32,619 nucleotides of DNA from Bacteroidaceae bacterium. GTDB lineage: Bacteria > Bacteroidota > Bacteroidia > Bacteroidales > Bacteroidaceae. The stretch covers positions 1 through 32,619 of the forward strand of contig JAGBBX010000041.1 of assembly GCA_017938245.1 (NCBI GenBank). Reading direction: 5' to 3'. The notes beneath the pieces were generated by a model. It did not search any database. It saw nothing but the letters and a program-made list of their open reading frames with translations, and was not told where the DNA came from. Numbering within the stretch: the first letter of the stretch is position 1; each line of letters starts with the position of its first letter. Below, one piece after another: positions 5,018-32,159 of the stretch. The translations under genes were made by a program, and so were the position numbers.

Positions 5018-5188
5018 TTACTTAACCAATACCACTGCGCTTTGCGCGAACTGCTTTGCGCTCGGCAATGTTTGATTAAGCAAGCTTATCAATCATTGCT
5101 CTCACTTAACCAAAACCACTGCGCTTCGCGCGAACTGCTTTGCGTTCGGCAATGCTTGATTAAGCAAGCTTATCAATCATTGCTCTCA
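5018..5188 (-). repeat. Two tandem 84-bp 3'-end units after the 1720-aa gene
   Basis: Stop-like codons end VLVK at 5188-5186 (the real TGA), 5104-5102 (TGA) and 5020-5018 (TAA), exactly 84 bp apart and all in the frame of the gene. Each unit runs from one stop to the next: GAGAGCAATGATTG, the near-palindrome TTGATAAGCTTGCTTAATCAA, then a GCGC...TTCGCGCGAA...GCGC segment, then codons for V-V-L-V-K and a stop. The distal end, with its TAA and AATATTATAGGC, aligns with the natural end of the 1257-aa-class gene at 23718, so it looks like the vestige of the original gene end. Confidence 0.85.
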
Positions 5189-8100
5189 CTTAACCAGCAC
5201 TTTCTTACCGTTGATGATGTAAACACCCTTAACAGCATTCTTAACGCGACGGCCATTCAAGTCGTAGATAACCTGATTGCCATCCTCGGCATTAACATTA
5301 CCGATACCGCTGAGTGTACCGTCAACTGTGAATAAGAACTTAGCACCCTCAAATACCTCGCCGGTCTCTGCATTGCTAAATATATACTTAGGTATTGACA
5401 ATGTATAAACTCCGGCATCGTAAATTCCGCTTATCAGCTCAAATTTAACAACATTACCCTCTATTGAGAAATGTGACTCATTTACGCTACCATTATCGCC
5501 GAAGATATTATATGTATCGATTCCGGGACGCAACGCATCGCAAGATACTGCGTGACTGAAGGTAACTGTTATGGTAGTAAGACTGCTTACGGTGCTACCG
5601 TCGGCGGGATCGATGCTTACAACACCGAACTCAACGGGCTCAACGGGAGCGGGAGCCTCAGCCTCCTCAAGTACCCAAGTTGCAGCAGCTGTGATAGGAG
5701 CGTCGCAGAAGGGATAGTCAACGCCACCAACGTTCTCTACCTTGAAGTAGCCGTTAGCACACTTGATATAGAACTCACCCTCGTTCTTGGTTGCCTCGAA
5801 TGCAAGAGCGCTACCCATTGTTGCGTCGTTCCAAGCGTCAACGTTCCAAGCGCGGCAAACGATGTAGTAACCCTCGCTTGATACAAGATACTTACCGTTC
5901 TCGTTCTCCTCGATTGAGAATACCTGGTCGCTAACCTCGGCAAAGTCGGATACGATTACAGAACCGATAGGACCGGTTGAGTAGTCGGCATTACGCTCGT
6001 TGATGTGCAGATACTTACCGCTTGTTACGTGCTTAACGCGATAGTACTTAACAGGATTGATAACTGCATTTACAGCTGCCATCACCTCGTCTGACACCTC
6101 AACACCCTCAACAGGAACAAACTTGACGGGAGTACCACCATCGGTAAGGTCGTTCATATTGGGATTCCAACGTATCGGATGACCTTCGAAAGAAGATGCA
6201 CCACAGCCACTGCTCAAAAGATAAGTCTTATCGTTGAACTCAGCTGTTACCTGATAAGAAGCTGCATCGGCAACAGAAGTCTCGATATTGATTGCAAGAG
6301 CACTTGCTGCATCAAGACGGTTAGAGACAGCAGCATCGGCCTCTACATCTGTGTAAGTAAGGAATTTACCTGTTGCAACGTGGAACAGATACCTGTTACC
6401 GTCGTTAGCAGTGATGAGATACCAGTTAAGATCTACATTATCGGTAGCGCTGTTGTAGTGGATGTTCTCGTAACCACCGAGAGTTACGTCAGCAAGTTTA
6501 GCCTCCTCGGGGAAGTCCTCGTGATAAGCCATAAATCCGCGACCGTTCCACTCCCAATGCAACTTGTAAACACCATCGGCGAGACCTGTCTCCACCTCAC
6601 CCTCGATGGTGAATGTGAGTGTTGCACCCTCGAAGAAAGAACCGTCAGATGTCTTGTTGATGTAGTTAGCAGGAATTACAAGGCTGTAGGTTCCGGCAGC
6701 AGTAATCTCGCTCTCAAGAACAAACGATACCAAACTATAATCGTTATACCAGTTACCATCTGCATCCTGGAAGCTGGGAGTAGCCTTGCAAACCTCGTTA
6801 CCCTCGGCGTCAACAACGCTGATGGGAGTGTAAACCTCGCCAATGTTGTGGCTGAAGTCTATCTCAACGCGGCTCAATGACTCAACAACACCAACAGCAG
6901 GTGTTGTGCTCTCGATGGTGAGAGGAGAGTTGTCTACAAGGTTGTAGTAGCCACCGATTGCCTCGCTTGCAATAGCAAGACCCTCGGGGTTAAGTACGAA
7001 GAAGCCTGCAGGAACAGAAAGCTGATAGAAGCCCTCGCCTGTTACAGCCTCGGGAAGTGAAAGAACTACTGTGTTAGCGTCAACAACCGTAGCGTCAAGC
7101 TCGAAGTACTTGCTGTATACGTAGTCACCTACCTCGTCGCTCCAAACACCGCTCATAGGATCGTAAACGAAGGGAACACCTGCCTCCACGTTTACAGAAA
7201 GACCCTGAGCACAAGTGAATGTGAACTCCTTAAGCTCGCTGAGCATCTCCTCACCGGTGGGAGTGTACTCCAATACGGGATATTCGCCCTGGGCATAGAG
7301 AGTGGGAAGAACGCCCTCGGCCTGTGCCTCGGCGTATGCGCCATAGCTTGAATATTTTGTAGAGTACTGAATATACTTAGCCTTCTCGACATTGGTAATT
7401 GTAGCTGTACCATCCTCGTTGATAGCGATTGTCCAAACACCGGCCTCGGCAGGAACCTCGTCGCTTACATTGAAGCTGTTGTATGTTCCGCTCATATAGA
7501 GATACTTACCATTTGCATCCTTGATATAGTAACCACCCTCGGCAGCCTCAAGCTCGAATGCATAGTAAACCATATCCTCGACGAATGAGCCTTTAACCTC
7601 AACCTCGCGTGCATTCAAGTAACCATACTTACCCTCGACAGAGAGAGCAGCCTGTGTGCCGGCTACCATAATAACCTTACCGGGCTTAACATCCTCGGCC
7701 GACTTGATTGCCTCGTATGGCTTCATCTCGCTTATAATATAAGAAACCTCGGTTACAGGACTTACATACTGCTCCTCACCGATTGTAAGAACAGCGATTA
7801 CCTTATATGTAGCATCCTTACCAACATACAGATTACTATAGATGCGGTTAGAAGCAGCTGTAGGCTCGTCGCCATTGTCGGTATAGTAGTAACGAAGAGT
7901 ATACTCTGTACCCTCCTCTACTCCTGCTATCTCCGATACGAAGCTTACATTCAGTGCCTCGGGATAAACACCCGATTCTACTGAAGGAACGGGAGCTGAT
8001 ACCGAAATACCGCCCTCAACAACCAACTCTACCTTGATAGTATTAATATTAAGTGTACCTGTTACAGCAAACTCTACGCTCTCAGCCTCGCCTGTCCAGG

Positions 8101-10348
8101 TTCCTGCGTCGAAGCCCTCGGCTGTCATTTTAGTAGAAGCCTTGCCCTCGAATACAATGCTTGTAAGTTTTGTACCAACGGGAGCAGAAACGGTAATTGT
8201 AGAACCCGTGTATGAACGGAGTTCGTAAGCGGGACCCTTCTTTGTCCAGATACGTACCTTTGTGGTAGCAGCACCCTTGTTGACATTTACCGATACACCG
8301 TTGTTGGTGAACGTAATATCATCGAACTCAACACCTGCCGAAACTGTCTCGTTGGGAGTTACCGAAGGCTCAAGAGCTGTGGGATTTGTGAAGTCAAACT
8401 CAGCTGTTGTGGGCTGTGAAGGCTCGGGCTCGGGAGTTACACGTCCTGCCTCAACTGTTGCGATAAGAGCCGCAAGTGCCTCGGCAGCAGCGTTCATCTC
8501 CTTGATGCTCATTGCCTCGTTAGCCATAATTCTCTTATACTCGGCGTCAAGAGCAACTACATCGTCGAATGCAGCCTTGAACTCCTCGGCAACCGAGCTG
8601 ACAACGTTAGAGATACCAAACTCTGACATATGCCAGTAGATACGCTCGGCTGTAACAAGGAAACGCAAGTGGCTGTAAGCCTCAGCAGCAGAAATCACGT
8701 TCGAAGCCCAAGCCTTGTCGCCTGCCTGAGGCAGACCGCTCTCAATCTTTGTAATTGTTGTGAAAGCCTCGCCGTCGTTGCTACCCTGCACCTCTATTGC
8801 ATCGGGGAAGTCACTACCACCGTTTACGCGTGTGTGGTAGTTGAACGAGAAGTTCTGAATTGAATTACCCTCGCCGAGGTCAATCTGAATGTAGTGAGGG
8901 CCATCAATTGCTACACCCCAAGATGTATGCATAAATGTTCCTGTGTTACCATCGACAAGCGCAGGTACACCATCACCATCCGTGTCGCCATTATTAGCAT
9001 TGTGCTCCTGAGGACAAGTTACATAAGCTGCCGCCTCGGCATCTGTAGTCTGAAGAGCAACCGGAGTAGCCTCAACGCTCAACTGAGCCTCGGCAAGCAG
9101 AGCGGCAGCCTTGTCTGTTACCTCCTTAAGAGCTGCGGCAGCGGCATCAACCTCCTCCTGTGAAGGAGCAAAAAGATTCGCAATCTCCTCGGCCGAAAGG
9201 ACACCACTATATACCGACACTGCGCTGATAGTACCGTCGAAGAGTTCCATTGCGCCCTCGGCTGTCATACCACCGCCGATGTAAATCTGAGCACCTGCGT
9301 GATCCTCTTTTACCATTTTGGGAGTAGCAATCTCGTAACCGCCGAAGTTGCGGTCCATCACAGATACGCCATTGATATATGCCTTGAAGTTGTTATTTGT
9401 GGGGTTAAGAACATAAACCAACACAACATCTTCGGCTCCTGCGGGAACTGTACCTGACGAGTAACGGTCACCGGTCTTGCAAGATGCCAAATAGCTAAGG
9501 TTAGCACCGCTTGTACCATACGCTACGTATGCCGAACCTGTGGGCATAGCATCGGTATTTGCAGCCTGTGTGGGGTCTGATGTGCAGAAGATAGCCTTTC
9601 TGTCGGCCAATGTAGCAGGAGTAGTAACCTTTACAGCTACAGTAAGGTCGCTAAGAGCAAAAATCTTGGCAGCATCCTCCTCGGGAAGCTGATAGGGAGC
9701 TGTACCAACCTCGGTTGTCGACCATACGAGATCTACTGTGGGCTCGGGCTCGGGTTCGGGATCAGGTTCCGGCTCAACAGTTGCAGCCTCAACAGCATAT
9801 ACATAGTGAATTGTCCAACCACCCTTACCCTGATTATAGGTAGGAGTACCGGCTGCACCATTCTGTACATTAATCCAAGTTCCGGCATTGTTTACGAAAC
9901 GAACCAACATATCCTCGGCATCGATGTAAGACATTGAGTCGCCATCACCGTTGAAGTTAGAAGAACCTTCACCGGCCTGGGTAGGATTCGTTGTTGTAAA
10001 CACGGCAGCACCCTCGATAGAACCGAAGTCCTTGGGAGAAGATGCCTGCATATAGGTTCCGTCTAACTTTTTAAGATAGTAAGAACCGGCCTCACCCTCG
10101 AATACGGGCTCCCATACAAACACCGCTGCGTCTGTAAAATCGGCAACGCTGTAAGGAGCAGCGCCTGTGTTACCAACAAAATAGAAATTGTTGGTAGCAG
10201 AAAGATTTTTAATGGCAATGTAAGTAGATGCAGTTTTTGCATTCAACTCGGCAGAGCTCAGACGAGTCTCGGTGAGACTGTAGCTCTGTGCCATTGCTGT
10301 CAATGCCATCGCAAAGAACAGCGACAAGAAAAGTGTAAACTTTCTCAT
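5186..10348 (-). CDS. Large exported protein with LamG-like, F5/8C and Ig-like modules
   Basis: 1720 residues starting MRKFTLFLSLFFAMALTAMA (signal peptide). Modules by eye: an N-terminal beta module at 22-195 shared with the partial gene; a Glu-Pro linker; a LamG/concanavalin-like lectin domain at about 205-395 (YINGVSVMDRNF, LFDGTISAVSVYSG); an F5/8 type C module at about 430-585 (DGNTGTFMHTSWG, IQIDLGEGNSIQNF); a helical stretch; beta modules; a chitobiase C-terminal-like segment near 785-870; Ig-like segments near 1043-1250 and 1573-1680; and the tail YDLNGRRVKNAVKGVYIING then KKVLVK. I see no catalytic site. It probably binds glycans or host surfaces, and the tail may direct type IX secretion or surface attachment. 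The stop lies inside the first 84-bp unit, whose codons supply the VLVK end. Confidence 0.92.
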   Translation of the reverse strand: MRKFTLFLSLFFAMALTAMAQSYSLTETRLSSAELNAKTASTYIAIKNLSATNNFYFVGNTGAAPYSVADFTDAAVFVWEPVFEGEAGSYYLKKLDGTYMQASSPKDFGSIEGAAVFTTTNPTQAGEGSSNFNGDGDSMSYIDAEDMLVRFVNNAGTWINVQNGAAGTPTYNQGKGGWTIHYVYAVEAATVEPEPDPEPEPEPTVDLVWSTTEVGTAPYQLPEEDAAKIFALSDLTVAVKVTTPATLADRKAIFCTSDPTQAANTDAMPTGSAYVAYGTSGANLSYLASCKTGDRYSSGTVPAGAEDVVLVYVLNPTNNNFKAYINGVSVMDRNFGGYEIATPKMVKEDHAGAQIYIGGGMTAEGAMELFDGTISAVSVYSGVLSAEEIANLFAPSQEEVDAAAAALKEVTDKAAALLAEAQLSVEATPVALQTTDAEAAAYVTCPQEHNANNGDTDGDGVPALVDGNTGTFMHTSWGVAIDGPHYIQIDLGEGNSIQNFSFNYHTRVNGGSDFPDAIEVQGSNDGEAFTTITKIESGLPQAGDKAWASNVISAAEAYSHLRFLVTAERIYWHMSEFGISNVVSSVAEEFKAAFDDVVALDAEYKRIMANEAMSIKEMNAAAEALAALIATVEAGRVTPEPEPSQPTTAEFDFTNPTALEPSVTPNETVSAGVEFDDITFTNNGVSVNVNKGAATTKVRIWTKKGPAYELRSYTGSTITVSAPVGTKLTSIVFEGKASTKMTAEGFDAGTWTGEAESVEFAVTGTLNINTIKVELVVEGGISVSAPVPSVESGVYPEALNVSFVSEIAGVEEGTEYTLRYYYTDNGDEPTAASNRIYSNLYVGKDATYKVIAVLTIGEEQYVSPVTEVSYIISEMKPYEAIKSAEDVKPGKVIMVAGTQAALSVEGKYGYLNAREVEVKGSFVEDMVYYAFELEAAEGGYYIKDANGKYLYMSGTYNSFNVSDEVPAEAGVWTIAINEDGTATITNVEKAKYIQYSTKYSSYGAYAEAQAEGVLPTLYAQGEYPVLEYTPTGEEMLSELKEFTFTCAQGLSVNVEAGVPFVYDPMSGVWSDEVGDYVYSKYFELDATVVDANTVVLSLPEAVTGEGFYQLSVPAGFFVLNPEGLAIASEAIGGYYNLVDNSPLTIESTTPAVGVVESLSRVEIDFSHNIGEVYTPISVVDAEGNEVCKATPSFQDADGNWYNDYSLVSFVLESEITAAGTYSLVIPANYINKTSDGSFFEGATLTFTIEGEVETGLADGVYKLHWEWNGRGFMAYHEDFPEEAKLADVTLGGYENIHYNSATDNVDLNWYLITANDGNRYLFHVATGKFLTYTDVEADAAVSNRLDAASALAINIETSVADAASYQVTAEFNDKTYLLSSGCGASSFEGHPIRWNPNMNDLTDGGTPVKFVPVEGVEVSDEVMAAVNAVINPVKYYRVKHVTSGKYLHINERNADYSTGPIGSVIVSDFAEVSDQVFSIEENENGKYLVSSEGYYIVCRAWNVDAWNDATMGSALAFEATKNEGEFYIKCANGYFKVENVGGVDYPFCDAPITAAATWVLEEAEAPAPVEPVEFGVVSIDPADGSTVSSLTTITVTFSHAVSCDALRPGIDTYNIFGDNGSVNESHFSIEGNVVKFELISGIYDAGVYTLSIPKYIFSNAETGEVFEGAKFLFTVDGTLSGIGNVNAEDGNQVIYDLNGRRVKNAVKGVYIINGKKVLVK

Positions 10349-10752: not shown

Positions 10753-10836
10753 TTACTTAACAAGAACTTTGGCTGCGCCCAAGTGCTTGGCGCTCGGCAA
10801 TTCTTTATTAAGCAAGCTTATCAATCATTACTCTCA
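10753..10836 (-). repeat. Single divergent 81-bp 3'-end unit after the 710-aa gene
   Basis: From the real TGA (10836-10834) to an in-frame TAA (10755-10753) is 81 bp, one codon shorter than the other units. It keeps TTGATAAGCTTGCTTAAT and GCCGAGCGC, but the second half is diverged (CAAGCACTTGGGCGCAGCC). It ends with codons AAA GTT CTT GTT AAG TAA, encoding KVLVK-stop with codons different from the live end (AAA GTG CTG GTT AAG TGA). That is expected if the distal end is the gene's former terminus. Confidence 0.8.
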
Positions 10837-12966
10837 CTTAACCAGCACTTTTTTGCCATTGATAACATAGATACCCTTAACAGGATTCTCTACGCGGCGA
10901 CCGCTGAGGTCGTAGATACCCTCAACAACTGTCTCGCCGGCTACCTGGTCGATACCTGTGTCGTCACCGGGGACATACTCCTCTATTGCCATAGCCGATG
11001 TCCAGCTACCCATAAAGTGAGGCAGGTTACCTGTGTAGAAGTAAGAACCTGAGCTATTGGGAGCGGGGAATGTTCCACCTACCTGATAAGCTACAAGTCC
11101 AAAGAGCTTCTCGTATGTTACGTCAGTCTCGCACTTGCCATTGGGATACATCTTCACGAGTGTAACATCAACCTTAGACTCAGAGATACCTGTTGCCGAG
11201 CCTGATGCACCGTTGGGAACAGTCAAATACTTGCCATCGAATGTTACGAATGAGAATGTTCCATCCTCGTTAGCCTCGCAAGTAAATACTGCTGTCTCGG
11301 GATAAGAGAGTCCCTTGCTTGTAAGAGTATCACGAACCATCGAAAGTGTATAGTCGCCTGTCTCTGTTACATTATAGTCGAGATAGTTACGTACACCACC
11401 GTATGTTACGAATGTAAGAGTGTACTTTGTACCGTTTGTGGGCAGGATAATCTCCTCGGTCTTGTAGTACTCCTGAAGAGCCTCGGCAAGTGTGATACGT
11501 GCCAATGTTGTGGGCTTAGCCTCGGCAGCGTCGATAGCAGCCTTGAATGTCTCACGACCTGCACCTGTGGGATAACCTACACCCTGGAGCTCGTAAATCT
11601 CCTTAACCTCGGCGATATACTCTACTGTCTCGGGATCATCCTCGTCGCTTGCAAGACCCTTGATAAGCTTCATAAGGTCGTTAAGCTCGGTAATCATTTC
11701 CATTATATCGTCGGCCTTATCATCGGCTCTCATATACATATCGTTACCCTCGTTGTAAAGCTCAACAAGTTCGCGGATATAAGTTACAAAGGGAAGATAT
11801 TTCTCCTCGGCTGTCTCGTTTGCCAATGCATAAAGCGAGAACTCAGCCATATGGAAATATGTACGCTCGGCAGTTACAAGAAAACGGAGATATTGGTAAG
11901 GCTGGTCGGCTACAATATCGCCTGATGCCCAATGCATACTACCCTGCTGGGGAAGATCCTTATCAAGAACAGCGATTTGAGAAAATTCTACACCATCATT
12001 ACTACCCAGCACCTCGATTACATCGGGATAGTCATCTGCACAGTTAGGTCTTGTGTCATACTCTATTGCAAATTTCTGCAAGGGTTCGTTCAAAGCATCA
12101 ACCTGCAACCAATGCTGCTTCTCAACAGGACTATTCCAACGTGAGTGGAAGAAGTTCGATGTATCGCCATCGATAAGAGCATCAATGGGACCCTCGCTTA
12201 GCTCAGGCTCATTACACCACAAGTAGTTAGCTGCAGCCTGGTCGGCAACCTGAAGCTCTATCTTACCACCACCGGTAGCAGAATACTTAAGCTCGTCGAG
12301 AATAAAGAGGTCAACCTCCTCGAGAACGTATGAGAGGCTATCCAAAGCCTCTTTGCGCAACTGCTCGCCTACTACAAGATTATAAGCAAGTGTCTCGGTC
12401 AAAGAGTCGATTGCAGCATACTCACCTACCTCGTAAATCTGACAAGAACCATAAGCTGCTCCGTCTGTAAGCGACCATCCGCAATAAGCGTAACCATACT
12501 CCTCGAATCCGTTAGCGGGAATATTGGTTATAGTACCGGTTCCGTCAAAAGCCAAAATCCAAGGATAGCTTGCGTGTCCGTATGTACTCTCAAAAGCCTC
12601 GACGTATGAAGTAGGAATATCCATCATCATAGCGCTACCGTCCTTTGCTGAAACATACTTCTGCGCAGCAATGTTAAAGAGATAGAGTTTACCTTCACAT
12701 TCTACAACTGTAAACTGCTGACTTGGATCCTCGGGATTATCCTCTACATTCGAGAACACGTATGTAGACCAAAGACGATCGGAATACTGTTCACTGCTAG
12801 GCCAAAAGAGTGAAGCCTGAGCACCATTTGCCTCAAGCCAGGGGCCAAACTGCAACCAGAAAATCTTTCCGGGCTTAATATCCTCGAGGCTTGCGATAGG
12901 ATTCTGTGCAAATGCAGTCATAGCAAATGCCACAAACATTGATAAGAAAAGAGTAAATTTTCTCAT
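10834..12966 (-). CDS. Exported F5/8 type C domain protein, 710 aa
   Basis: Begins MRKFTLFLSMFVAFAMTAFA, a signal peptide. An N-terminal beta module spans about 22-150 (IASLEDIKPGKIFWLQFG). One F5/8 type C module lies at about 229-384 (DALIDGDTSNFFHSRW, DVIEVLGSNDGVEF, YLRFLVTAERTYFHMAEF). A helical segment with GVGYPTGAGRETFKAAIDAA follows, then a beta module that also occurs in the 945-aa and partial proteins, and the tail YDLSGRRVENPVKGIYVING then KKVLVK. No enzyme motif is seen, so it is probably a surface binding protein. It has its own promoter box and terminator, so it is likely monocistronic. Confidence 0.92.
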   Translation of the reverse strand: MRKFTLFLSMFVAFAMTAFAQNPIASLEDIKPGKIFWLQFGPWLEANGAQASLFWPSSEQYSDRLWSTYVFSNVEDNPEDPSQQFTVVECEGKLYLFNIAAQKYVSAKDGSAMMMDIPTSYVEAFESTYGHASYPWILAFDGTGTITNIPANGFEEYGYAYCGWSLTDGAAYGSCQIYEVGEYAAIDSLTETLAYNLVVGEQLRKEALDSLSYVLEEVDLFILDELKYSATGGGKIELQVADQAAANYLWCNEPELSEGPIDALIDGDTSNFFHSRWNSPVEKQHWLQVDALNEPLQKFAIEYDTRPNCADDYPDVIEVLGSNDGVEFSQIAVLDKDLPQQGSMHWASGDIVADQPYQYLRFLVTAERTYFHMAEFSLYALANETAEEKYLPFVTYIRELVELYNEGNDMYMRADDKADDIMEMITELNDLMKLIKGLASDEDDPETVEYIAEVKEIYELQGVGYPTGAGRETFKAAIDAAEAKPTTLARITLAEALQEYYKTEEIILPTNGTKYTLTFVTYGGVRNYLDYNVTETGDYTLSMVRDTLTSKGLSYPETAVFTCEANEDGTFSFVTFDGKYLTVPNGASGSATGISESKVDVTLVKMYPNGKCETDVTYEKLFGLVAYQVGGTFPAPNSSGSYFYTGNLPHFMGSWTSAMAIEEYVPGDDTGIDQVAGETVVEGIYDLSGRRVENPVKGIYVINGKKVLVK

Positions 12967-13074: not shown

Positions 13075-13235
13075 ATAATTTATTATTAAATGCAACTATT
13101 TTTTTATTTTTTTTGAAAAATTGTTTTTTCATAAGACAATGAGTGGCCCCCGGGTATTTGGGAGTTACTTTTGCCGATGTTTCGGACGATTAGAAACAGA
13201 CTATTAAGCGAGTGCAAAGGAAACTTGTTTACAGT

Positions 13236-13356
13236 GCTAACATTTCGGGCGATTGAAAATCGCCCCTACAAGCAATGAGAAAAGCAATGAATATCAATGA
13301 TTTTCCTCAGCGTTAATCTTCGAGAACAGTAGGGGCGATTTCCAATCGCCCGCACA
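13236..13356. repeat. 86-bp hairpin repeat, two stems 86 bp apart
   Basis: Hairpins GGGCGATT-gaa-AATCGCCC (13247-13265) and GGGCGATT-tcc-AATCGCCC (13333-13351) are spaced exactly 86 bp. The CAAGCAATGA...AATATCAATGATTTTCCTCAGCG linker is the same as in the 16715 array. The two hairpins have opposite flank orientation (TTTC before and CCTAC after, versus GTAG before and CGCAC after). Confidence 0.8.
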
Positions 13357-13388
13357 ATAAGTTCCTCTTATTTGTAATTAAGAGGAGC
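13351..13388 (-). repeat. 38-bp repeat also present at 32233-32270
   Basis: The reverse complement is identical over 38 bp to 32233-32270. It holds the small hairpin CCTCTTA-8 nt-TAAGAGG. Here it is fused directly to an 86-bp-family hairpin. Confidence 0.8.
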
Positions 13389-13589: not shown

Positions 13590-13676
13590 TTCCTTAACCA
13601 ATACCACTGCGCTTCGAGCGAACTGCTTTGCGTTCGGCAAAGCTTGATTAAGCAAGCTTATCAATCATTGCTCTCA
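13590..13676 (-). repeat. Single 84-bp 3'-end unit after the 945-aa gene
   Basis: The live stop TGA is at 13676-13674. 84 bp downstream, the position of the vestigial stop (13592-13590) reads GAA after an intact V-V-L-V-K codon run. The old stop codon has apparently been lost, consistent with it no longer ending a gene. The unit is otherwise close to those at 5018-5188 and 31989-32159. Confidence 0.8.
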
Positions 13677-16511
13677 CTTAACCAGCACTTTCTTGCCGTT
13701 AACAATATAGACACCCTTAACAGGATTCTCTACACGACGACCGCTGAGGTCATAGATACCCTCAACAACTACCTCGTTCTTAACCTCCTCGATAGCAGTC
13801 TCGCCTGCTACATACTCCTCGATGAGAAGTGCCGATGAGTAGCCATCGTTCCAGAAGGGAGCAGTTGCACCGTCGTAGTCGCTACCATCGGTTTTGAGAA
13901 CCATATAACCTGTCTCCCAAGCACCGTTGCTTGTACGGACACCACGAACACTCTTCCAAGCTATATAACCAAAGATATCAACGGGAGTTGCTACTACATA
14001 CGAAGAGGGAACAAGTTTTTCGAACTTGATGTGTGTCATTCTGTCCTTCTCGGCCTGGAAACCTACTACGTTACCGTTACCTGCAAGCCAATCGACACCG
14101 CTATACTTGCTGTGATATACAAGGTAGTTACCGTCGATAGTCTTAATTGAGTAAGCGCTGTCGATACGCTCAACAGTTACGCTATCCTCGCCAAGAATCT
14201 CAAGCTCACTGAGCTCGAACTCGAATGCTGCTGTCTCGGGATAAGCAACACCGTCAACGGGAATCATTGCTACGTCTTTACCCTCACCTGTTCTTGCATT
14301 ATCGGTGTAGTTCAGATAGAACTTGTTACCGTTCTTTGCAACCATTGTGAAGCAGTACTTCTTACCAATCTCGGGCATCTGAACGTCTGTTGAAGCTGCG
14401 TAAGCTGCAAGTGCCTCCTCAAGGATAGCCTTGTTTGCCAATGTGGGAGCAGCTGCCACAACATCGAGAACCTCCTTAAGAGCTGCACGGGGTGCCTCAT
14501 TGGGATAACCAACACCTACAAGTGCAAGCATCTCATTTGCCTGTGCTACAAGAGCAACAGTCTCGGGGTTATCGGCTGTAGAGATAAGCTCACGAAGAAG
14601 CGCTGTCTGCTCAATGAGCCGGGCTGTGATATCCTGAACAAGGAGTTCTGTTGCCTCGGGATCGGCAAGAACCGCTTGAGCCTGCTTGTAGAGGTCGTTA
14701 AGCGCCTGAAGCTGGTCGATGAAAGGAATATAAGCGTCGAATGCTACCGAACGATAGAATGCGGTTGTGAGACGGAACTCGGCCATATGCCAGTAGTCGT
14801 GGTCGGCACCTGCACCCTTACGGTCGGTAGAGGTTTTTGTTACCTCGAAACGGAGGTAGCTGTAATCCTGCTGTGCCTCGATAGGCTCTGATGAATAGCT
14901 CTTGCCGCTACCTGCAGGAAGACCTGTTACGTAAGCAATCTCCTCGAACTCTACACCGTCGTTACTACCCTGAACCGAAATCTCGGCGGGATAGTCGTTA
15001 GCAGCACCGCTACGTGTTACGTAGTTGAAACCGAATGCGCTGATTGAGTTACCACCAAGGTCGATAGTGATGCTGTGAGGCATACCGTCGTCTGATGCGC
15101 CATTATCGCTCCATCTTGTGTGGAAGAATGTAGCGTTGTTACCGTCGAGAAGGTCGGCGATGGGACCCTCAGAAGCCTCCTGAGCGTTTGTATAGAGATA
15201 GAAATCGGCCTCGGGATCGGTTGTCTGAAGTTCGAAAGGAACACCACCGTACTCCTCATAGCCTGCCTCATCATAGATAAGAGCCTCAGTATCAACGATT
15301 GCCTCTTCAAGGGCTGCAATAGTAGCATCCGATACAGCCTCGGTGTCACGTACAGTCAAAAGGATTGTTGAGCCTGCATCGGCACCACCTGTCCAGAATG
15401 CGAGGGCGGGACTACGTGTGTTCATTGCGTATGTTGTTCCGTGCTGATAGATGTAAACACCTGTCTCGACCTGGTTGCTCTTCTTTGCATACCAATCTGA
15501 AACGTAACCCTCGAGGTAAGGAAGATCCTCGTTTACGTCGTAGAGCAAAGGATAGGTGTGACCATCGTCACCAAGAGGATCGCCCGAAGCAAGAACGCGG
15601 TTCTCACCTGCTGCCATATTTACAATCTGGAATTTGAAGGGGTTACCGACAAAAGCCCAAGTGTAATTATCCTCTTTGCCCTCGGGAATTTTCTGAACGG
15701 CACCTGCGGCTGCGTTACCTGCGGGGATATACTCCTGACCCTCCTCGTAACCAAGATACCACTTGTTACCACTGTGGATAGTCATATAGTACCAACGGCT
15801 TACGCTTGCATAATCCTTTGAGAATACGATGCTGTTGTCGTAAGAGCAAGTAATCTCGTATGTTGCGTCGCCCTCAACAAGACCTTCGGGGAGGTTGTTG
15901 AATGTCACACCGTAAGCAGTGAGTGTGGGCGAAGGAAGGTTAGCACCCATATTGGCGTCAAAAGACTCTGTTGCAACAACCTCGCCATCGAGAACGTAGT
16001 TGTAAACGATTGTAGCAAGAGTAGCCTCCTCGAGAACTACCTTGAAGTTGCTAACGATGATACCCTTGTTGGCACCTGCAAAGATGAAAGAAGCCGATGT
16101 CTCCTTAAGACCCTCAACTGCAACGCTCTGAACGTCGTAAGCGGGAACATAGTCCTTGCCATCTACAGTAAGAGTAACATCATCGGTATACTCGCCATCC
16201 TTTACAAAGTCGAAACTATAAGATGCTACATAGTAACCGTGAGGAGCAGTCATCACGTACTGCGAGGGGCTAACGGTACCTACCCACAGACGAAGATTGT
16301 CGTGCTCGTCCGATACTGAAATGTTGTTGGCACTTACACTGAATGTAAAGCCGGGAACCTCGCTGCTCTCCCAAACAGAGTTCCAAGTACCTGCCGCGTT
16401 ACCCTGTGTAAAGGTACCGCTGTTACGGTCGATTGTTACGGTAATCGACTCGGCCATCGCTGCTGCCATAAACATAAACAGCATCGAAAAGATTAGAGTA
16501 AATTTTCTCAT
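13674..16511 (-). CDS. Exported F5/8 type C domain protein, 945 aa
   Basis: Signal peptide MRKFTLIFSMLFMFMAAAMA. An N-terminal beta domain covers about 20-175 (TITVDRNSG-like start, VSNFKVVLEEA end). A ricin/lectin-like region follows at about 230-400 (WYYMTIHSGNKWYLGYEEGQ). The F5/8 type C module is at about 420-584 (DLLDGNNATFFHTRWSDNG, ITIDLGGNSISAFGFNY, YWHMAEFRL). Helical segments with GVGYPNEAPRAALKEVLDVV come next, then the beta module shared with sister genes and the tail YDLSGRRVENPVKGVYIVNG then KKVLVK. No catalytic residues are recognised. It lies between its own promoter box and a strong terminator and is likely transcribed alone. A surface glycan-binding role is inferred. Confidence 0.92.
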   Translation of the reverse strand: MRKFTLIFSMLFMFMAAAMAESITVTIDRNSGTFTQGNAAGTWNSVWESSEVPGFTFSVSANNISVSDEHDNLRLWVGTVSPSQYVMTAPHGYYVASYSFDFVKDGEYTDDVTLTVDGKDYVPAYDVQSVAVEGLKETSASFIFAGANKGIIVSNFKVVLEEATLATIVYNYVLDGEVVATESFDANMGANLPSPTLTAYGVTFNNLPEGLVEGDATYEITCSYDNSIVFSKDYASVSRWYYMTIHSGNKWYLGYEEGQEYIPAGNAAAGAVQKIPEGKEDNYTWAFVGNPFKFQIVNMAAGENRVLASGDPLGDDGHTYPLLYDVNEDLPYLEGYVSDWYAKKSNQVETGVYIYQHGTTYAMNTRSPALAFWTGGADAGSTILLTVRDTEAVSDATIAALEEAIVDTEALIYDEAGYEEYGGVPFELQTTDPEADFYLYTNAQEASEGPIADLLDGNNATFFHTRWSDNGASDDGMPHSITIDLGGNSISAFGFNYVTRSGAANDYPAEISVQGSNDGVEFEEIAYVTGLPAGSGKSYSSEPIEAQQDYSYLRFEVTKTSTDRKGAGADHDYWHMAEFRLTTAFYRSVAFDAYIPFIDQLQALNDLYKQAQAVLADPEATELLVQDITARLIEQTALLRELISTADNPETVALVAQANEMLALVGVGYPNEAPRAALKEVLDVVAAAPTLANKAILEEALAAYAASTDVQMPEIGKKYCFTMVAKNGNKFYLNYTDNARTGEGKDVAMIPVDGVAYPETAAFEFELSELEILGEDSVTVERIDSAYSIKTIDGNYLVYHSKYSGVDWLAGNGNVVGFQAEKDRMTHIKFEKLVPSSYVVATPVDIFGYIAWKSVRGVRTSNGAWETGYMVLKTDGSDYDGATAPFWNDGYSSALLIEEYVAGETAIEEVKNEVVVEGIYDLSGRRVENPVKGVYIVNGKKVLVK

Positions 16512-16643: not shown

Positions 16644-16714
16644 TATTTTTTCTGAAAAAAAACAATTATTATTGTGTATATTTTTTTCAACAAGGGAGTT
16701 TTTTTACTTATTTT

Positions 16715-17122
16715 TTTCCTCAGCGTTAATCTTAGCGAACAATAGGGGCGATTTCCAATCGCCCGCACAAGCAATGAAAAAAGCAATAAACATCAATGAT
16801 TTTCCTCAGCGTTAATCTTCGCGAACAGTAGGGGCGATTTCCAATCGCCCGCACAAGCAATGAAAAAAGCAATGAATATCAATGATTTCCCTCAGCGTTA
16901 ATCTTCGCGAACAGTAGGGGCGATTTCCAATCGCCCGAACAAGCAACGAAAAAAGCAATGAATATCAATGATTTTCCTCAGCGTTATTCTTCGCGAACAG
17001 TAGGGGCGATTTCCAATCGCCCGCACAAGCAATGAAAAAAGCAATGAATATCAATGATTTTCCTCAGCGTTAATCTTCGCGAACATTTCGGGCGATTGAA
17101 AATCGCCCCTACAAGCAATGAA
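16715..17122. repeat. Tandem array of the 86-bp hairpin repeat
   Basis: Four full units, 16715-16800, 16801-16886, 16887-16972 and 16973-17058, each exactly 86 bp, differ by a few bases, and a fifth is partial (17059 to about 17122). Each carries GGGCGATT-tcc-AATCGCCC. The last has the hairpin and its flanks in the opposite orientation (TTTCGGGCGATT-gaa-AATCGCCCCTAC). The array lies between the nqrF terminator and the promoter of the 945-aa gene. No protein or RNA gene is recognised in it. Confidence 0.9.
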
Positions 17123-17129
17123 AACTGCA

Positions 17130-17174
17130 TCTAAAAACAACAAACCGAGCAACCTGAAGATTGCTCGGTTTGTT
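17130..17174 (-). terminator. Rho-independent terminator of the nqr operon
   Basis: A 14-bp perfect stem, AACAAACCGAGCAA / TTGCTCGGTTTGTT, with an 8-nt loop is followed on the minus strand by GTTTTTAG. It begins 14 bp after the nqrF stop. Confidence 0.85.
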
Positions 17175-23251: not shown

Positions 23252-23374
23252 CAGAAATTTTTCTTTATTATTATCATCATTTGGGCACAAATATTTTCAT
23301 AAACAAAAAAAAGTTTATTTATTGTTAAAAAAAGAGGTAATGATAGCGCGTGCTGACATACTCCATCCACTACA

Positions 23375-23650
23375 GCGTTATTCTTTGCGAACATTTCGGG
23401 CGATTGAAAATCGCCCGCACAAGCAATGAAAAAAGCAATGAATATCAATGATTTTCCTCAGAGGTAATCTTCGCGAACATTTCGGGCGATTAAAAATCGC
23501 CCCTACAAGCAATAAAAAAGCGATTTCCAATCGCCCGCACAAGCAATGAAAAAAGCAATGAATATCAATGATTTTCCTCAGAGTTATTCTTTGCTAACAT
23601 TTCGGGCGATTAAAAATCGCCCCTACAAGCAATGTCTATTTCATCAATGA
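23375..23650. repeat. 86-bp hairpin repeats, partly inverted and truncated
   Basis: Hairpins start at 23398 and 23484 (86 bp apart) and at 23604. Between them lies a truncated unit whose hairpin lacks its first two bases (AAGCGATT-tcc-AATCGCCC, from 23518). The 23518 and 23604 hairpins are again 86 bp apart, so one unit is cut down to 34 bp. Loops are gaa, aaa, tcc and aaa. This fills the gap between nqrA and the terminator of the next gene. Confidence 0.85.
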
Positions 23651-23660
23651 CTTACCAAAC

Positions 23661-23717: not shown

Positions 23718-26700
23718 TTACTTAACCAATACCTTCTTAGTCTCAACTACACCGTTAGCGTAAACAACCTTAACGATGTTAACACCCTTAGTAGGAACTG
23801 AAGAAGCACCACCTACAGTGTAGTAAGATACTGATACAACCTCATCACCCTCGGCTGCTACGAGATCCTCGATAGACATCTCATAGTCAACCTTAACAAG
23901 ACGCCACTGTGAAGCATCGGGATCGGCGGTCCAGTAAACTACTGTACCGTTTGAGCCGGCACCGCTGCTGTGACCACCCTGGTGCAAGCACCACTGAGAA
24001 ATGTTGTTGGGGTTAGCAAGGTTGAATGCAGAACCCTTACCGGGCTTAACGAGGTATGAACTGGGCCACTCCTCAGCAAGCTGGATAGCCTCACTCTGAG
24101 TAGAAGACTCGCTGATGTAGTAAGCTACACCGGGAACTGTTGTACCGATAGCACGAATCTGATAGAGGTTTGCTGCCTCCTCCTCGGTGAGAGTACCTGC
24201 GTCGATATATGTACCACGGTCCTCAGCCTCTGTGAAGTGGAAGTAGAATGCGGGGTTGTTCTCCTCGGTCTGCTTCCAACCAAGTGTTGCAGCATCCTCG
24301 GTTACATACATTGACTTTGTATGACCCTGCTTATTGTAGAACTCAGCGTAAGCCGACTGTATACGGTATACACCGGGAACCATAGGATTCTTCTCGAGAG
24401 TCTCGGCAAGACCGATCTTCTCGGCAAGAGCAGCAGCTGCAGCGGGAGCCTCTGCGAATGCAGAATCGGCAACAACAGCCTGTGCCTTATCGTATGCCTC
24501 CTGAAGGTCGCCAAGGCTTGCTACGCAACCGGGATCGGGACCAACCTCGATACCGAGGCCTTCAACGATACCAATCATATTCTCCAACCAATAGTAGTCG
24601 GGGTTATCCATAGTTACCTTATAAATCTGCCACTCACCCTCACCGTTAGCCTTGTTGAAGCAGAGTGAATCGCCCTTAGAGTCGAGTATACCCTCTGTAT
24701 CCTTAGGCTGAGGATCGGTTACGGCACGTGCAGCGAGACCGCTGTACCAGTCCATATAAACCATATAAGGAGTCTCAACCACTCTCTCGGTGTCGTTAAC
24801 ACCGTCAGCATCTGTATCAAGGCTATCCTTTGTTACGCGACCTGCCTGCTCCTCATAGAGTACGAATGCACCCTCTGTAGCAGCAGAAGCAACAGCCTTA
24901 ATCTTAGCAGCCTTGCTCTTAGAAGCTGTAGCCGATACGAACTTAGCGTTCTCGTCCTCAGCCATTGTAGGCCAATACTTAGCTGTAGAGAGGCTTACGA
25001 ATGTGTAAGTACCATCGTCGTTCTTAACAATGCGGTATACGCAGTTTGCACGAACAGCGTCTGCACTGCTGTGGAAACGTGAAGTACCTGCATAGAACTT
25101 AGCCTCACCCTCGGGCTCGCTCTTAACGATCTCGCCGGTCTCCTCGTCCAAGACGTTAACCGACTTGGTGTTAAGAAGACCCTTAACGATATAAAGACCG
25201 GTCTCGAGCTGAGCGAGGTCTGTTACCTGCTGACCAACGCGAACATTGTAAGGATTCTCGGCAAAGAGAAGAGGATCGTAACCTACGCCAACCTCTGTGA
25301 TAGCAAGCTTCTTGGGGAAGAGTGATACAGCACCGTTAGATGTAGTCTTATCGCGGCTGTAAAGCTCTACAGAGAATGAGCTCATAGGAGCGGGGAATGT
25401 AACATCGATGCAGATGTACTCCTGAGGCTCGCTACCGCTCCAAGGTGAGTGATAGTAAGACTGAGCAGCAGAACCCTCGGTTCCAACCTTATCGCCCTGA
25501 CCCCACTTACCGTCGCAGAGACGAGCAACTGTAGACTCGAAGCCCTCCTGTGTCTCGGTGTGGTTAGCCCAGAGAAGATCCTCTGTAAGCTCAATTTCCT
25601 CACCGTTCTCGTCATAGAGACGGAGCTCACCAAGAGCAATCATAGGCCAATCGCCACCATCACCTGCTGTACCGAGGTGACGCTCGAGGAATGTCAAACG
25701 AATACCGTTAACTGCCTGATGGAGAACGATAGCTGAAGAGTTCCAAACAGCGTTGTTGGGATAGTTGGGGTGTGTTGCTGCAGAAATGCCATCAACAATG
25801 CTGGGGAATGTTGAGAAGCGGAGAGCTGCACCCTGGAACTGCTCGATAAGACCCTCGATCTGAGAGTAGTAGTTATCGATCTGAGAGGGGCTGAGGTCCT
25901 CCCAGTTAGACTCTACTGTTGTACAGATGTAATCTGCATCGTCAAGAATCTTCTGAGTTGAGATAGGCCATTTACCCTCTGAAGTAGCATCGTAAGGAGG
26001 ATTAACAAACTCGGTAGAGCCTCTCAAATCCTCAATCTGAGACATATACATATAAACGCGCTCGCTCATATAGAAGCTGATAGCTGCTGAAAGCTCGTCC
26101 TTAGCTGCGAAGATACCTGCAATATCGTTCTCGGCGATAGCAGCCTCGGCAGCCTCGATAGCTGACTCAAGAGCCTCCTTAGAGTCGGTTACGTTACCCT
26201 CGTGGTCGCCATACTGCTCGAGACGAGCCTTAGCGTCAGCGATTGTGGGGTTGATAACGTTCTCGCAGATTGACTGAACTGAGATAGGCTCAACAGTACC
26301 CTCGGCTACGATTGCCTTGTTCAATTTGAAACCAAAGTCAACGGGGAGGTGGAATGTACCGCTCTCAAGATCGCCTGCCTCGAGAAGCTCTTTGTTCTCG
26401 GCCGAGAAAATCTTAAGGTTACCACGCATATCATAACCTACGTAAACTGTCAGAGGCTCGTCAAGCTCGTTCCAAGCCTCGTTTACCCAAACGCGTGTAA
26501 TCTCGGTAGAGAGCTCGAACTCACCATCTGCACGGAGTGTAAATGTGAACTCACCAAGGGTAGCTGCATTTGAGTGTGAGAATGCCCATCCGTTACCTGC
26601 ATCAGCAGTCCAAGCGTTTGTCCTGTTGTCGGGGTTGGTCAAATATGCATCTCTTACGGGAGCATAGATAACGTACTTACCCTCCTTAGCAGGAATAAGC

Positions 26701-30800: not shown

Positions 30801-31991
30801 CTGGGTGCATTGGCCTACTACAACACAGGTCTTAAGGCTACAAGCGCATCACAGGTGCCCGCATCCAGTGACGACCGCCGTTGGGAGTTCGTATCAACAG
30901 GCAACCCCGATGAGTTCTACATCAAGAACGTAGGTCAGAAGAAGTTTATCACCAGCATCAGCAACAACGAGGCTGCAATACTTACCAGCACAAACACACT
31001 AAGCGCAGCCAAGTTCACAGTAATGTACAATGGTAACGGAACACTTAGTTTTGCCCTCACAGGCGACGAGAGTGCAGCACTTAACGTAAGTAGCGACAAG
31101 AGCATCATTGGTTGGGCTGCATCACACACCAACTCGCAGTGGAAAGTTACAGTTGTAGCCGACAATGCCTCAGAGGTAGAGAAAGTGAACCTCAAAACAA
31201 TTATCGCCGAGGCAAAGCGTACACTTGCCGAGATTGGTACAGTAGAGGGCGACAAGGTAACATTCAACAGCGATGTAAATGTTATATCTAACGATGTAAC
31301 CGCTCTTACCATAGCTCTCAACAACCTTTATCAAGAGGCCGAGGAGAACTTTGAGACAGCGCCCAACCTCCTCTACTACATCGACCACCTTACCGCAGCT
31401 ATCGAGGCACTCGACGGAACATACCTCCTCAGCCCCGTAGCAAGCGCCAATAACACCATCGTATGGTACAACATCAAGGATGTTGCCAACGGCACTTATT
31501 GCGGCGTTGACACTGAGAATACAACTGCCACCAAGAAGATGACAGTATCGAACACCGACGAATTTGACCGTGAGAACCGCGACTTCTGGTGGGGACTCGA
31601 AGCTACAGGCAACGAGAATGAGTACAAGATTTTCAATGCGAACCGCAATGTATATCTCTACTCGACAAACCGTAACTATGTCAAGGTAGACGGCGAGAGC
31701 GAGGCAGGTGCATACATAATCACCGTTGATAAGGAGAATGTAGGTATCGTAATTGCTCAGGGAACCAAGTTCTGGAGCAACAGTGTAGCAGGTAGCGTAT
31801 CATTGAAGAACCAGAGTTCACTTTGGAAACTCGAGAAGGCAGCAGTAGAAGAGGGTAACTTCAGCGGTATCGAAGAGATTATCGAGAGCGAGGGTGCAAA
31901 GGCAATCTACGACCTCACAGGCCGTCGTATCGACGAGATTACCGCTCCCGGCATCTACATCGTTAACGGTAAAAAAGTGCTGGTTAAGTGA
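27840..31991 (+). CDS. Exported M60-like zinc metallopeptidase with lectin-like modules
   Basis: 1383 residues beginning MRMRNLLLTLLVSLVAAPLA (signal peptide); the second ATG at 27846 is also possible. A ricin-like module spans about 24-155 (GKIYRFINKANTNIAMEASS). The peptidase domain covers about 240-720, with WGPAHEIGHQHQ: His577, Glu578 and His581, then Glu594 (GLTEVTNN), fitting the M60 pattern HExxH-x(8-28)-E. Helical segments (about 900-980 and 1115-1170) alternate with two further lectin-like modules (about 985-1105 and 1215-1320). The tail is YDLTGRRIDEITAPGIYIVN then GKKVLVK. M60-like enzymes of gut Bacteroidetes cleave mucin-type O-glycoproteins, so the same substrate class is likely here but not proven. 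It is divergent from the neighbouring leftward gene, and its stop begins two 84-bp units. Confidence 0.93.
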   Translation: MRMRNLLLTLLVSLVAAPLAAQLQDGKIYRFINKANTNIAMEASSPTDIYGSAKSNRYSHLWLAEKHPSNSEAWSLRSLGNGLYVTPKGTSTIWTFSAKPSASTVLYCLSTGGDYYTFNSVNNATNNTCMHYATSQGGAIVGWNTGAEATHWTIEEVTIDEEELQKNWDELNAFNAALTDENIAKYEAALANLFSDKACTTLKKNFANVAAIEADTDYKALPAELQAMVKKVYSGDWAEANLDSSKPGWDSEHAKRFRIQSIEPYSIAGEVTDRFGINAHINMDNPTGITGNYRQHVYIIVEGEIKDGAELYLGSLVGHGLLNTYEKGTRLHEGLNVVPFHANGNTLYINYVVHTFQNGKYTHKLSDYKDLKVQIAGGNVNGYYNGVGDYLWGEPDDDDDWQYYEDRTNTESATILGKRQILHFTMWPTEVSDDNGKYTENNCMSLYLPDNISVPANTPAKQKVNKMLEAWDRIHMSELATMGLLSKAEIDSLNALYPRYNQKWEKAGNIYDYTEAMYANQDGIDYSEYFNHHGIALGNFSGYMSGGWRNCNYNQNTMGSIIGEIATNAGSAWGPAHEIGHQHQSVFTVNGLTEVTNNMHSNIAVWFMGMGTSRVNGTAGSLAAVYNENYRNNRHFLFHEASDGGQNLWSQTQMYYKLWMYYHLAGHKTDFYPTLFELNRRDRMSSNNLGWIDGKGHASGTESMLKYYKQACQAAGEDLTEFFRAYGFFVLLDQAERGDYSTSFYTQTQAEVDKAIAWVKAKGYKENLAPLFINDCVATASYGHDGKTKRSYWDNETANGKNATIGMYTTCIDTSVKAQGYLYNYSGTTLSILHDNASGAIGFIVYSGDELIAFTNNYSVNMPSIKGEIQVYAVQADGSKVQIPSAAEGGSEEQQRTALNSAINAAAKALSYVTTTGKDVGYYHEQAVTGLRSLLEGAKNAYNNKDQSVKTYGQWAVALTTEINRLASDKYSMVNIKELNHFTLTNKLGALAYYNTGLKATSASQVPASSDDRRWEFVSTGNPDEFYIKNVGQKKFITSISNNEAAILTSTNTLSAAKFTVMYNGNGTLSFALTGDESAALNVSSDKSIIGWAASHTNSQWKVTVVADNASEVEKVNLKTIIAEAKRTLAEIGTVEGDKVTFNSDVNVISNDVTALTIALNNLYQEAEENFETAPNLLYYIDHLTAAIEALDGTYLLSPVASANNTIVWYNIKDVANGTYCGVDTENTTATKKMTVSNTDEFDRENRDFWWGLEATGNENEYKIFNANRNVYLYSTNRNYVKVDGESEAGAYIITVDKENVGIVIAQGTKFWSNSVAGSVSLKNQSSLWKLEKAAVEEGNFSGIEEIIESEGAKAIYDLTGRRIDEITAPGIYIVNGKKVLVK

Positions 31992-32159
31992 GAGCAATGA
32001 TTGATAAGATTGCTTAATCAAGCATTGCCGAGCGCAAAGCAGTTCGCGCGAAGCGCAGTAGTGCTGGTTAAGTGAGAGCAATGATTGATAAGCTTGCTTA
32101 ATCAAGCATTGCCGAGCGAAAAGCAGTTCGCGCGAAGCGCAGTGGTATTGGTTAAGTAA
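31989..32159 (+). repeat. Two tandem 84-bp 3'-end units after the M60 gene
   Basis: VLVK-stop occurs at 31989-31991 (live TGA), 32073-32075 (TGA) and 32157-32159 (TAA), each exactly 84 bp apart and in frame. Unit content matches the units at 5018-5188 on the other strand. The distal end has GTA TTG GTT AAG TAA, the same codons as the natural end of the 23718 gene, whereas the live end has GTG CTG GTT AAG TGA. Confidence 0.85.

Follow-up and report, generated by a model that had tools for sequence, protein, structure and literature searches.

The tandem units that follow four genes of the window (the whole 32,619-nt stretch of Bacteroidaceae DNA analyzed here) are probably copies of a non-autonomous structured mobile element of ~75–90 bp, a reading to which we give a probability of roughly 0.6. 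Each copy would be folded and carry its own left core, with the old gene end left downstream. Two observations carry this reading. The helices P1, P3, and P4 of the unit covary, and a short internal segment (the guide) is matched to the unit's own left end. In addition, unit copies occupy sites at which homologues have none, namely at a gene end in genome G007, at a promoter in G339, and as an in-frame insert in G591. The repeat family would be undescribed, as judged from Rfam and the open-licence literature, in which no account of the unit was found. It occurs in roughly one in two of the Bacteroidaceae genomes sampled (144/301) and, across many gut bacteria, bears on 3′ ends and on promoters. 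Insertion at a gene end would be made nearly silent by re-encoding the ending, and the copies supply natural guide/target pairs for testing base-paired site choice by small palindromic elements.

Units at gene ends in the window

The 1720-aa gene (5189..10348, minus strand) encodes a protein with F5/8 type C and lectin-like domains and the C-terminal end KKVLVK. Its coding end is GTGCTGGTTAAG-TGA, with the last codons GTG CTG GTT AAG TGA and the live stop at 5186. Two 84-bp units with VLVK and a stop in frame follow it, as the first-pass annotation had described. The re-encoded ends are GTTTTGGTTAAG-TGA at 5102 and GTATTGGTTAAG-TAA at 5018, and the ends at 5186, 5102, and 5018 lie in one frame with a spacing of 84 bp. 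Tandem Repeats Finder reported the array with a period of 84 and a score of 326.

Four further units are located 3′ of three other window genes, and every unit starts with the last codons of its own gene. The spacings are 81 bp for the gene ending at 10834, 84 bp for that ending at 13674, and twice 84 bp for that ending at 31991. On the minus strand, the unit of gene 10834-12966 (10756..10850) is the 81-bp form, with the guide AGCACTT pairing at 7/7 positions, and that of gene 13674-16511 spans 13593..13690. On the plus strand, the two units of gene 27840-31991, which encodes a Peptidase_M60 domain, span 31975..32072 and 32059..32156. All units that had been noted behind these three genes are present, but near 13590 the codon after the re-encoded VLVK is GAA and not a stop. 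The products of the four unit-bearing genes are large and contain F5/8 type C, lectin-like, or Peptidase_M60 domains, and no match was found for them in NCBIfam. The earlier claim that the unit length is a multiple of three held for all six window spacings; in a genus-wide set of 40 units, however, it held for only 26 of the 39 spacings measurable from row lengths (one unit was not measurable). The other 13 were 76, 79, 80, 82, or 83 bp, and whole-codon length was rejected as a rule.

A covarying fold that includes the last codons

The unit can fold on the sense strand of the gene into P1, a short helix (GTGAG/CGAAC), a bulged stem (P3), and a hairpin (P4). P1 is formed by the first seven bases of the unit (the left end) and the internal guide, and at gene ends its left strand consists of the last codons. 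Two conserved motifs, TTAAGYGAG and CCGARCG, flank P3. In unit 1 of the 1720-aa gene (minus strand throughout), the left core, made of the last codons AAGTGCTGGTTAAG and the live stop TGA, spans 5186..5202, with the 5′ strand of P1 at 5196-5202. P3, which is bulged with the loop AAGC-TT-GCTT and has GTGAG and CGAAC on its flanks, lies at 5149..5183, followed by the guide AGCAGTT (5133..5139), of which 6/7 positions pair with AAGTGCT, and P4 (GCGC-GAA-GCGC, 5121..5131). The right core at 5102..5118 is at the same time the left core of unit 2 (GTTTTGGTTAAG-TGA), which spans 5021..5118, and the downstream GTATTGGTTAAG-TAA (5018..5034) is presumably the displaced old gene end. The C-GNA-G triloop, the two-base TT loop, and tandem GA are known both in stable single-stranded DNA and in RNA.

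Two-sided changes were found at 16/29 pairs in alignment A1 (40 units of the genus), which was aligned by MAFFT without a model and whose structure was partly read from the same sequences. They were found at 26/29 pairs in A2 (71 distinct rows) and 22/26 in A3 (32 rows), both aligned to a covariance model and thus leaning towards its structure. The observed level of covariation was reached by 0 of 500 shuffles in each alignment and slid controls collapsed, with the proviso that the copies and base changes are not phylogenetically independent. Position 3 of P1 is unpaired in 26/40 A1 rows. The first-pass annotation had suggested that the unit uses the last codons of the gene, and this was borne out in a form not visible to that reader: these codons pair with an internal segment of the unit, and the resulting helix covaries.

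Probable displaced gene ends

In the window's genus, the right copy is followed by TAA in 21 of 40 rows, and its codon differences from the left copy are 24 synonymous and 4 non-synonymous (32 and 10 when all genera are taken together). The synonymous share expected for single changes is 31%, which gives a P of about 2e-9 if the changes are neutral and independent. In one of the 21 TAA rows (L040 173), another unit comes next. The right copy has remained mostly synonymous to the left and does not drift as a plain untranslated region would, so that, judged from these codons, the downstream copy in this genus would most simply be the former gene end. Outside this genus, the first two codons are often the same in both copies, and an element-borne core and a target duplication are therefore not separated there. 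Among the 12 gene ends of the own genome that encode GKKVLVK*, the five with GTGCTGGTTAAGTGA all have a unit (one of them a long variant) and the other seven have none. A long form of the unit was seen at L007/L251 (G000 C23:24242) and L029 (G008 C64), with an extra hairpin-like segment of ~80 nt between CCGAAC and the guide region.

Occurrence and position of the units

By BLAST, the own genome holds the six window copies and one partial copy, and 15 of 44 genomes of the genus, own genome counted, have a match. Covariance model R1 was built from 40 units, A1 having been gathered with a gene-end query, and its matches fall in the 144 of 301 family genomes given above, spread over 18 of the 30 sampled Bacteroidaceae genera. 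A second model, R2, matched 39 of 247 genomes sampled over Bacteroidales. It gave at least 14 matches in the own genome; eight lie beyond the window, and seven of these eight could be located again and read. All copy numbers are minimum values, as at most 14 (R1) or 17 (R2) candidates were scored per genome. One exact pattern retrieved 11 loci from a named genome collection from which own-genome records may have been left out, all in ruminant-gut Bacteroidaceae bacterium MAGs. The same kind of single query, which says little, gave no match in viral contigs (one exact pattern) or in plasmids (one promoter-type unit).

Among the 31 array-first units of A1, an automatic test labeled 24 as gene ends. 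Four labeled as inside a frame, with sense frames of at least 229 codons, were counted as gene ends on recount, giving 28/31; of the other three, one is a frameshifted end and two are array members. Because of its query, A1 is biased to gene ends. The same test, which is crude in that "inside an open frame" often means a chance frame, assigned the 64 first non-duplicate matches of A2 to gene ends (34), positions upstream of a divergent start (14), positions inside a frame (7), and unclear cases (9). For the 32 rows of A3, the corresponding numbers were 6, 9, 2, and 15. On inspection of the six A3 gene ends, L259 and L284 were well borne out and L270 weakly; L269, L272, and L273 have no ATG or are antisense to a longer frame. 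In-frame insertion in a protein-coding gene has one clear case, G591, and most unit copies that were read are not in ORFs.

None of the seven own-genome units read outside the window follows a KVLVK tail. Two of the seven had been labeled gene ends, one on a frame without ATG and the other antisense to a longer frame. L274 was labeled upstream of a divergent start, and L273 adjoins the start of a divergent frame although its automatic label was gene end. At L272 (G000 C37), three near-identical units, each nested in a GGGGCGATT palindrome, lie 1–5 kb apart. The first-pass annotation had pictured a small element that inserts at the conserved codons of gene ends, does not change the protein, and builds a structured region 3′ of the gene, and this part of its reading is supported. 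The proposed tie to gene ends does not hold for the family, whose members are also found just 5′ of divergent gene starts and, once, in frame within an ORF, and the CTD-like tail is not needed. The annotation had counted frequent occurrence away from such gene ends, random phase, or membership in a known REP/MITE family with unrelated insertion sites against its proposal, and by this measure the proposal is half refuted.

At L259 (G498), the ORF ends in ..LIETYG and its TAA stop falls within the unit's own TTAAGTGAG. At L128 (G140 C128), three adjacent genes with similar C-terminal ends have near-identical units, and the downstream flank is common to two of the three genes and not the third.

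Filled and empty sites

The gene ending at 23718 on the minus strand has an empty end, GTATTGGTTAAG-TAA (23718..23732), at which the homologue in G007 carries a unit. Homologues of this gene were found in at least 43 places; 30 were fetched and 29 show the gene end, which is empty in 28 and filled in G007. The right copy of the G007 unit, GTATTGGTTAAGTAATTG, is the same as in the empty homologues, and its left copy is GTGCTGGTTAAGTGAG (GTGCTGG). In another genus, the filled site of G339 and the empty site of G337 have identical flanks except for one 7-bp repeat. The G339 guide, GTACCTT, matches AAGGTAC, which is already present in the empty site of G337. This site is a Bacteroides-type −7 box (TAnnTTTG) of the divergent gene. 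Thirty loci of this site, from at least 40 places, were inspected by eye, and two were filled, G229 and G339. No homologue of the G229 L160 gene was found in 45 genomes of its genus, so that this site has no empty counterpart. In G591, the unit encodes 25 extra residues (75 nt) in frame in a ZIP-like protein (named by eye from the sequence). The insert is absent from 14/14 other readable homologues (19 loci fetched, 18 of them others, 4 unreadable).

The G007 and G591 cases are compatible with insertion behind AAA or AAG and repetition of no more than that triplet. G339 fits an element-borne core without duplication beyond the triplet and an 8-bp target duplication equally. Among 24 homologous loci of a further gene, only that of G023 has a unit; its left and right copies are equal and its native end is not known, and it was left out of the gain cases.

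In the window's genus, an inserted unit would bring its own left core GTGCTGGTTAAGTGAG, re-encoding V-L-V-K and a stop, and leave the former last codons and TAA downstream. Insertion would occur 3′ of an AAA/AAG triplet, presumably when a recombinase or transposase works on the single strand in its folded form. Head-to-tail arrays would form, since every copy regenerates the landing sequence. The first bases of the element, TTAAGTGA, provide a K codon with TGA in one frame and TAA in another; insertion at a gene end would hence be nearly silent, and such copies would survive.

Comparison with elements moved by Y1 enzymes and other known systems

As to the agent, it is possible, if on balance unlikely, that the unit is an IS200/IS605-derived element or a REP moved by a Y1 HUH enzyme. 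The unit is palindromic, forms head-to-tail arrays, has its guide 5′ of a hairpin foot, ends in AAA, AAG, or AAC, and comes after AAA or AAG. Y1 transposase genes and units co-occur loosely but above chance (both in 61 genomes, unit only in 83, Y1 only in 38, neither in 119; odds ratio 2.3, p 9e-4). Furthermore, the RAYT subclass 2.6 of Bacteroidetes is reported to have atypical structures at its flanks (PMC6006769). These points are set against the absence of linkage. Among 34 scanned Y1 loci, out of many more, only L189 has a nearby unit copy, which is not an end of the gene's element; no mobilizing enzyme linked to the unit and no parent element bearing a TnpA Y1 transposase were found in the fetched loci, and Y1 or RAYT was rejected as the evident driver. 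Units also occur in the single-contig genomes G052 and G185, which gave no Y1 match. The two RAYT-like genes of the genus, L061 (G023) and L062 (G013), carry the motifs NHLH and YIHNNP and have their own, different flanking palindrome (GGCGGATA...TATCCGC), and no RAYT flanked by the unit was found in the 34 loci or at these two genes.

The unit resembles REP/BIME sequences associated with RAYT (TnpA-REP) in being small, palindromic, repeated in arrays, and mostly outside genes. It differs in that it is longer, its P1 is matched to the flank, it carries gene-end codons, and no linked RAYT was found. GTAG REP termini often give the stop codon to flanking ORFs (PMC3733652). The tetranucleotide GT[AG]G at the hairpin foot is absent from the unit, whose conserved motifs, by eye in the alignments, are TTAAGYGAG and CCGARCG. 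The best reading is a palindromic mobile element that is REP-like in behavior, lacks the defining features of GTAG REPs, and has an end matched to its own guide; in the way it works it comes closest to REP or RPE elements. For IS200/IS605 elements and MITEs, base pairing between a guide and the flank beside hairpins is described (PMC6006769). In the unit, the guide pairs and covaries with a flank that may hold a cleavage site, and the order of guide, hairpin, and AAR resembles the right end of IS200/IS605 elements and REPs; the guide of the unit, however, lies between two hairpins. Rickettsia palindromic elements (RPE) make in-frame fusions with genes (PMC10969869), and the G591 copy is an in-frame insertion likewise. 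They differ in that RPEs are about 150 bp and the units lie mostly at gene ends or near promoters. The attC site of integrons is a folded single-strand site at gene 3′ ends with a variable stem, arrays, and paired RYYYAAC/GTTRRRY cores. The unit is also folded, lies at gene 3′ ends, has a variable stem, and forms arrays, but it has no inverse RYYYAAC core and no gene cassette, and no integrase was shown. The attC assignment was rejected: the window unit contains GTTAAGT but, by eye, no inverse core.

Guide and left end change together

Over 45 distinct combinations from A1 and A2, guide and left end form 5.96/7 pairs on average, compared with 4.39 after shuffling (maximum 4.89 in 5000). All seven positions pair in AAGTGCT/AGCACTT, AAGTTGT/ACAACTT, and AAATCAT/ATGATTT, and six of seven in AGGTACT/AGTAGCT and AGGTGAT/ATCACCA. 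Four combinations, mostly second units of arrays, have only 4/7 pairs. The arms may be kept matched by guide pairing at the landing sequence or by later perfecting of the palindrome, and palindrome correction by template switching may contribute as well.

A far-reaching form of the first possibility, which we regard as doubtful, is that the 7-nt guide pairs with the landing sequence and programs target choice across Bacteroidales. Re-matching at new sites would give guide-specific lineages, moved by an undescribed single-strand recombinase. Its targets would be gene ends with AAGTGCT, AAGTTGT, AGGTGAT, or AAATCAT and promoter −7 boxes with AAGTTAC, AAGGTAC, or AAGATAC. Rather unlikely, too, is the opposite case, in which template switching, by correcting quasi-palindromes, produced the covariation, and neither selection nor guided targeting did. 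It would account for G229 L160, whose left end, guide, and right copy each differ from those of its sisters at the matching base while the remainder is almost identical, and for departures from Watson–Crick pairing, in which G.T and A.C are about equally common (38 vs 20 in A1, 37 vs 51 in A2, and 75 vs 71 pooled). The near fixation of TTAAGYGAG and CCGARCG argues against it, as does the G339 guide, whose matching target already exists in the empty homologue, in line with what guided choice would predict.

Gene conversion and 3′ UTR function as less likely explanations

Compared with the mobile element, it is quite unlikely that the unit is copied by gene conversion and tandem slippage among related gene ends and is not itself mobile. 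The six BLAST-level copies of the own genome share a single 32-kb contig and follow genes with similar ends, and the tandem copies in the window are nearly identical. In G007 (L010, C1), two convergent genes have unit-bearing ends that face each other ~700 bp apart, so that gene conversion could have moved the G007 unit. Conversion does not explain the members at promoters and in an ORF, where there is no gene-end homology to convert, nor the units at gene ends that have little in common beyond KVLVK-like codons.

No Rfam match at the gathering score was found in the window. A search of seven loci with a limit of E 1 gave six matches, none of which came near its gathering score, and a described structured RNA was rejected. 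Folded singly, the two window units did not give the covarying fold as the lowest-energy one, and their z-scores were weak (RNA −0.8 and −1.3; DNA 0.2 and −1.8), whereas for L037 the covarying fold was recovered with RNA and DNA parameter sets. Selection of the unit as a cis-acting 3′ UTR RNA element for stability or termination, with the last codons as part of a structured stop region, is improbable. In its favor, P1 covaries with codons, the L037 RNA fold is the covarying one with a z of −3.1, 28 of the 31 array-first units of the gene-end-queried A1 follow a sense ORF end, and G.T exceeds A.C in A1 alone. Against it, the pooled counts show no clear RNA-like wobble excess (A2 leaning to A.C), other copies adjoin promoters or sit in an ORF, seven of the 12 equivalent gene ends in this genome have no unit, and Rfam gave no match.

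The window also holds a second repeat family, consisting of GTAGGGGCGATT...AATCGCCC tandem palindromes with periods of 86 and 120, at 13215-13386, 16714-17143, and 23366-23657.
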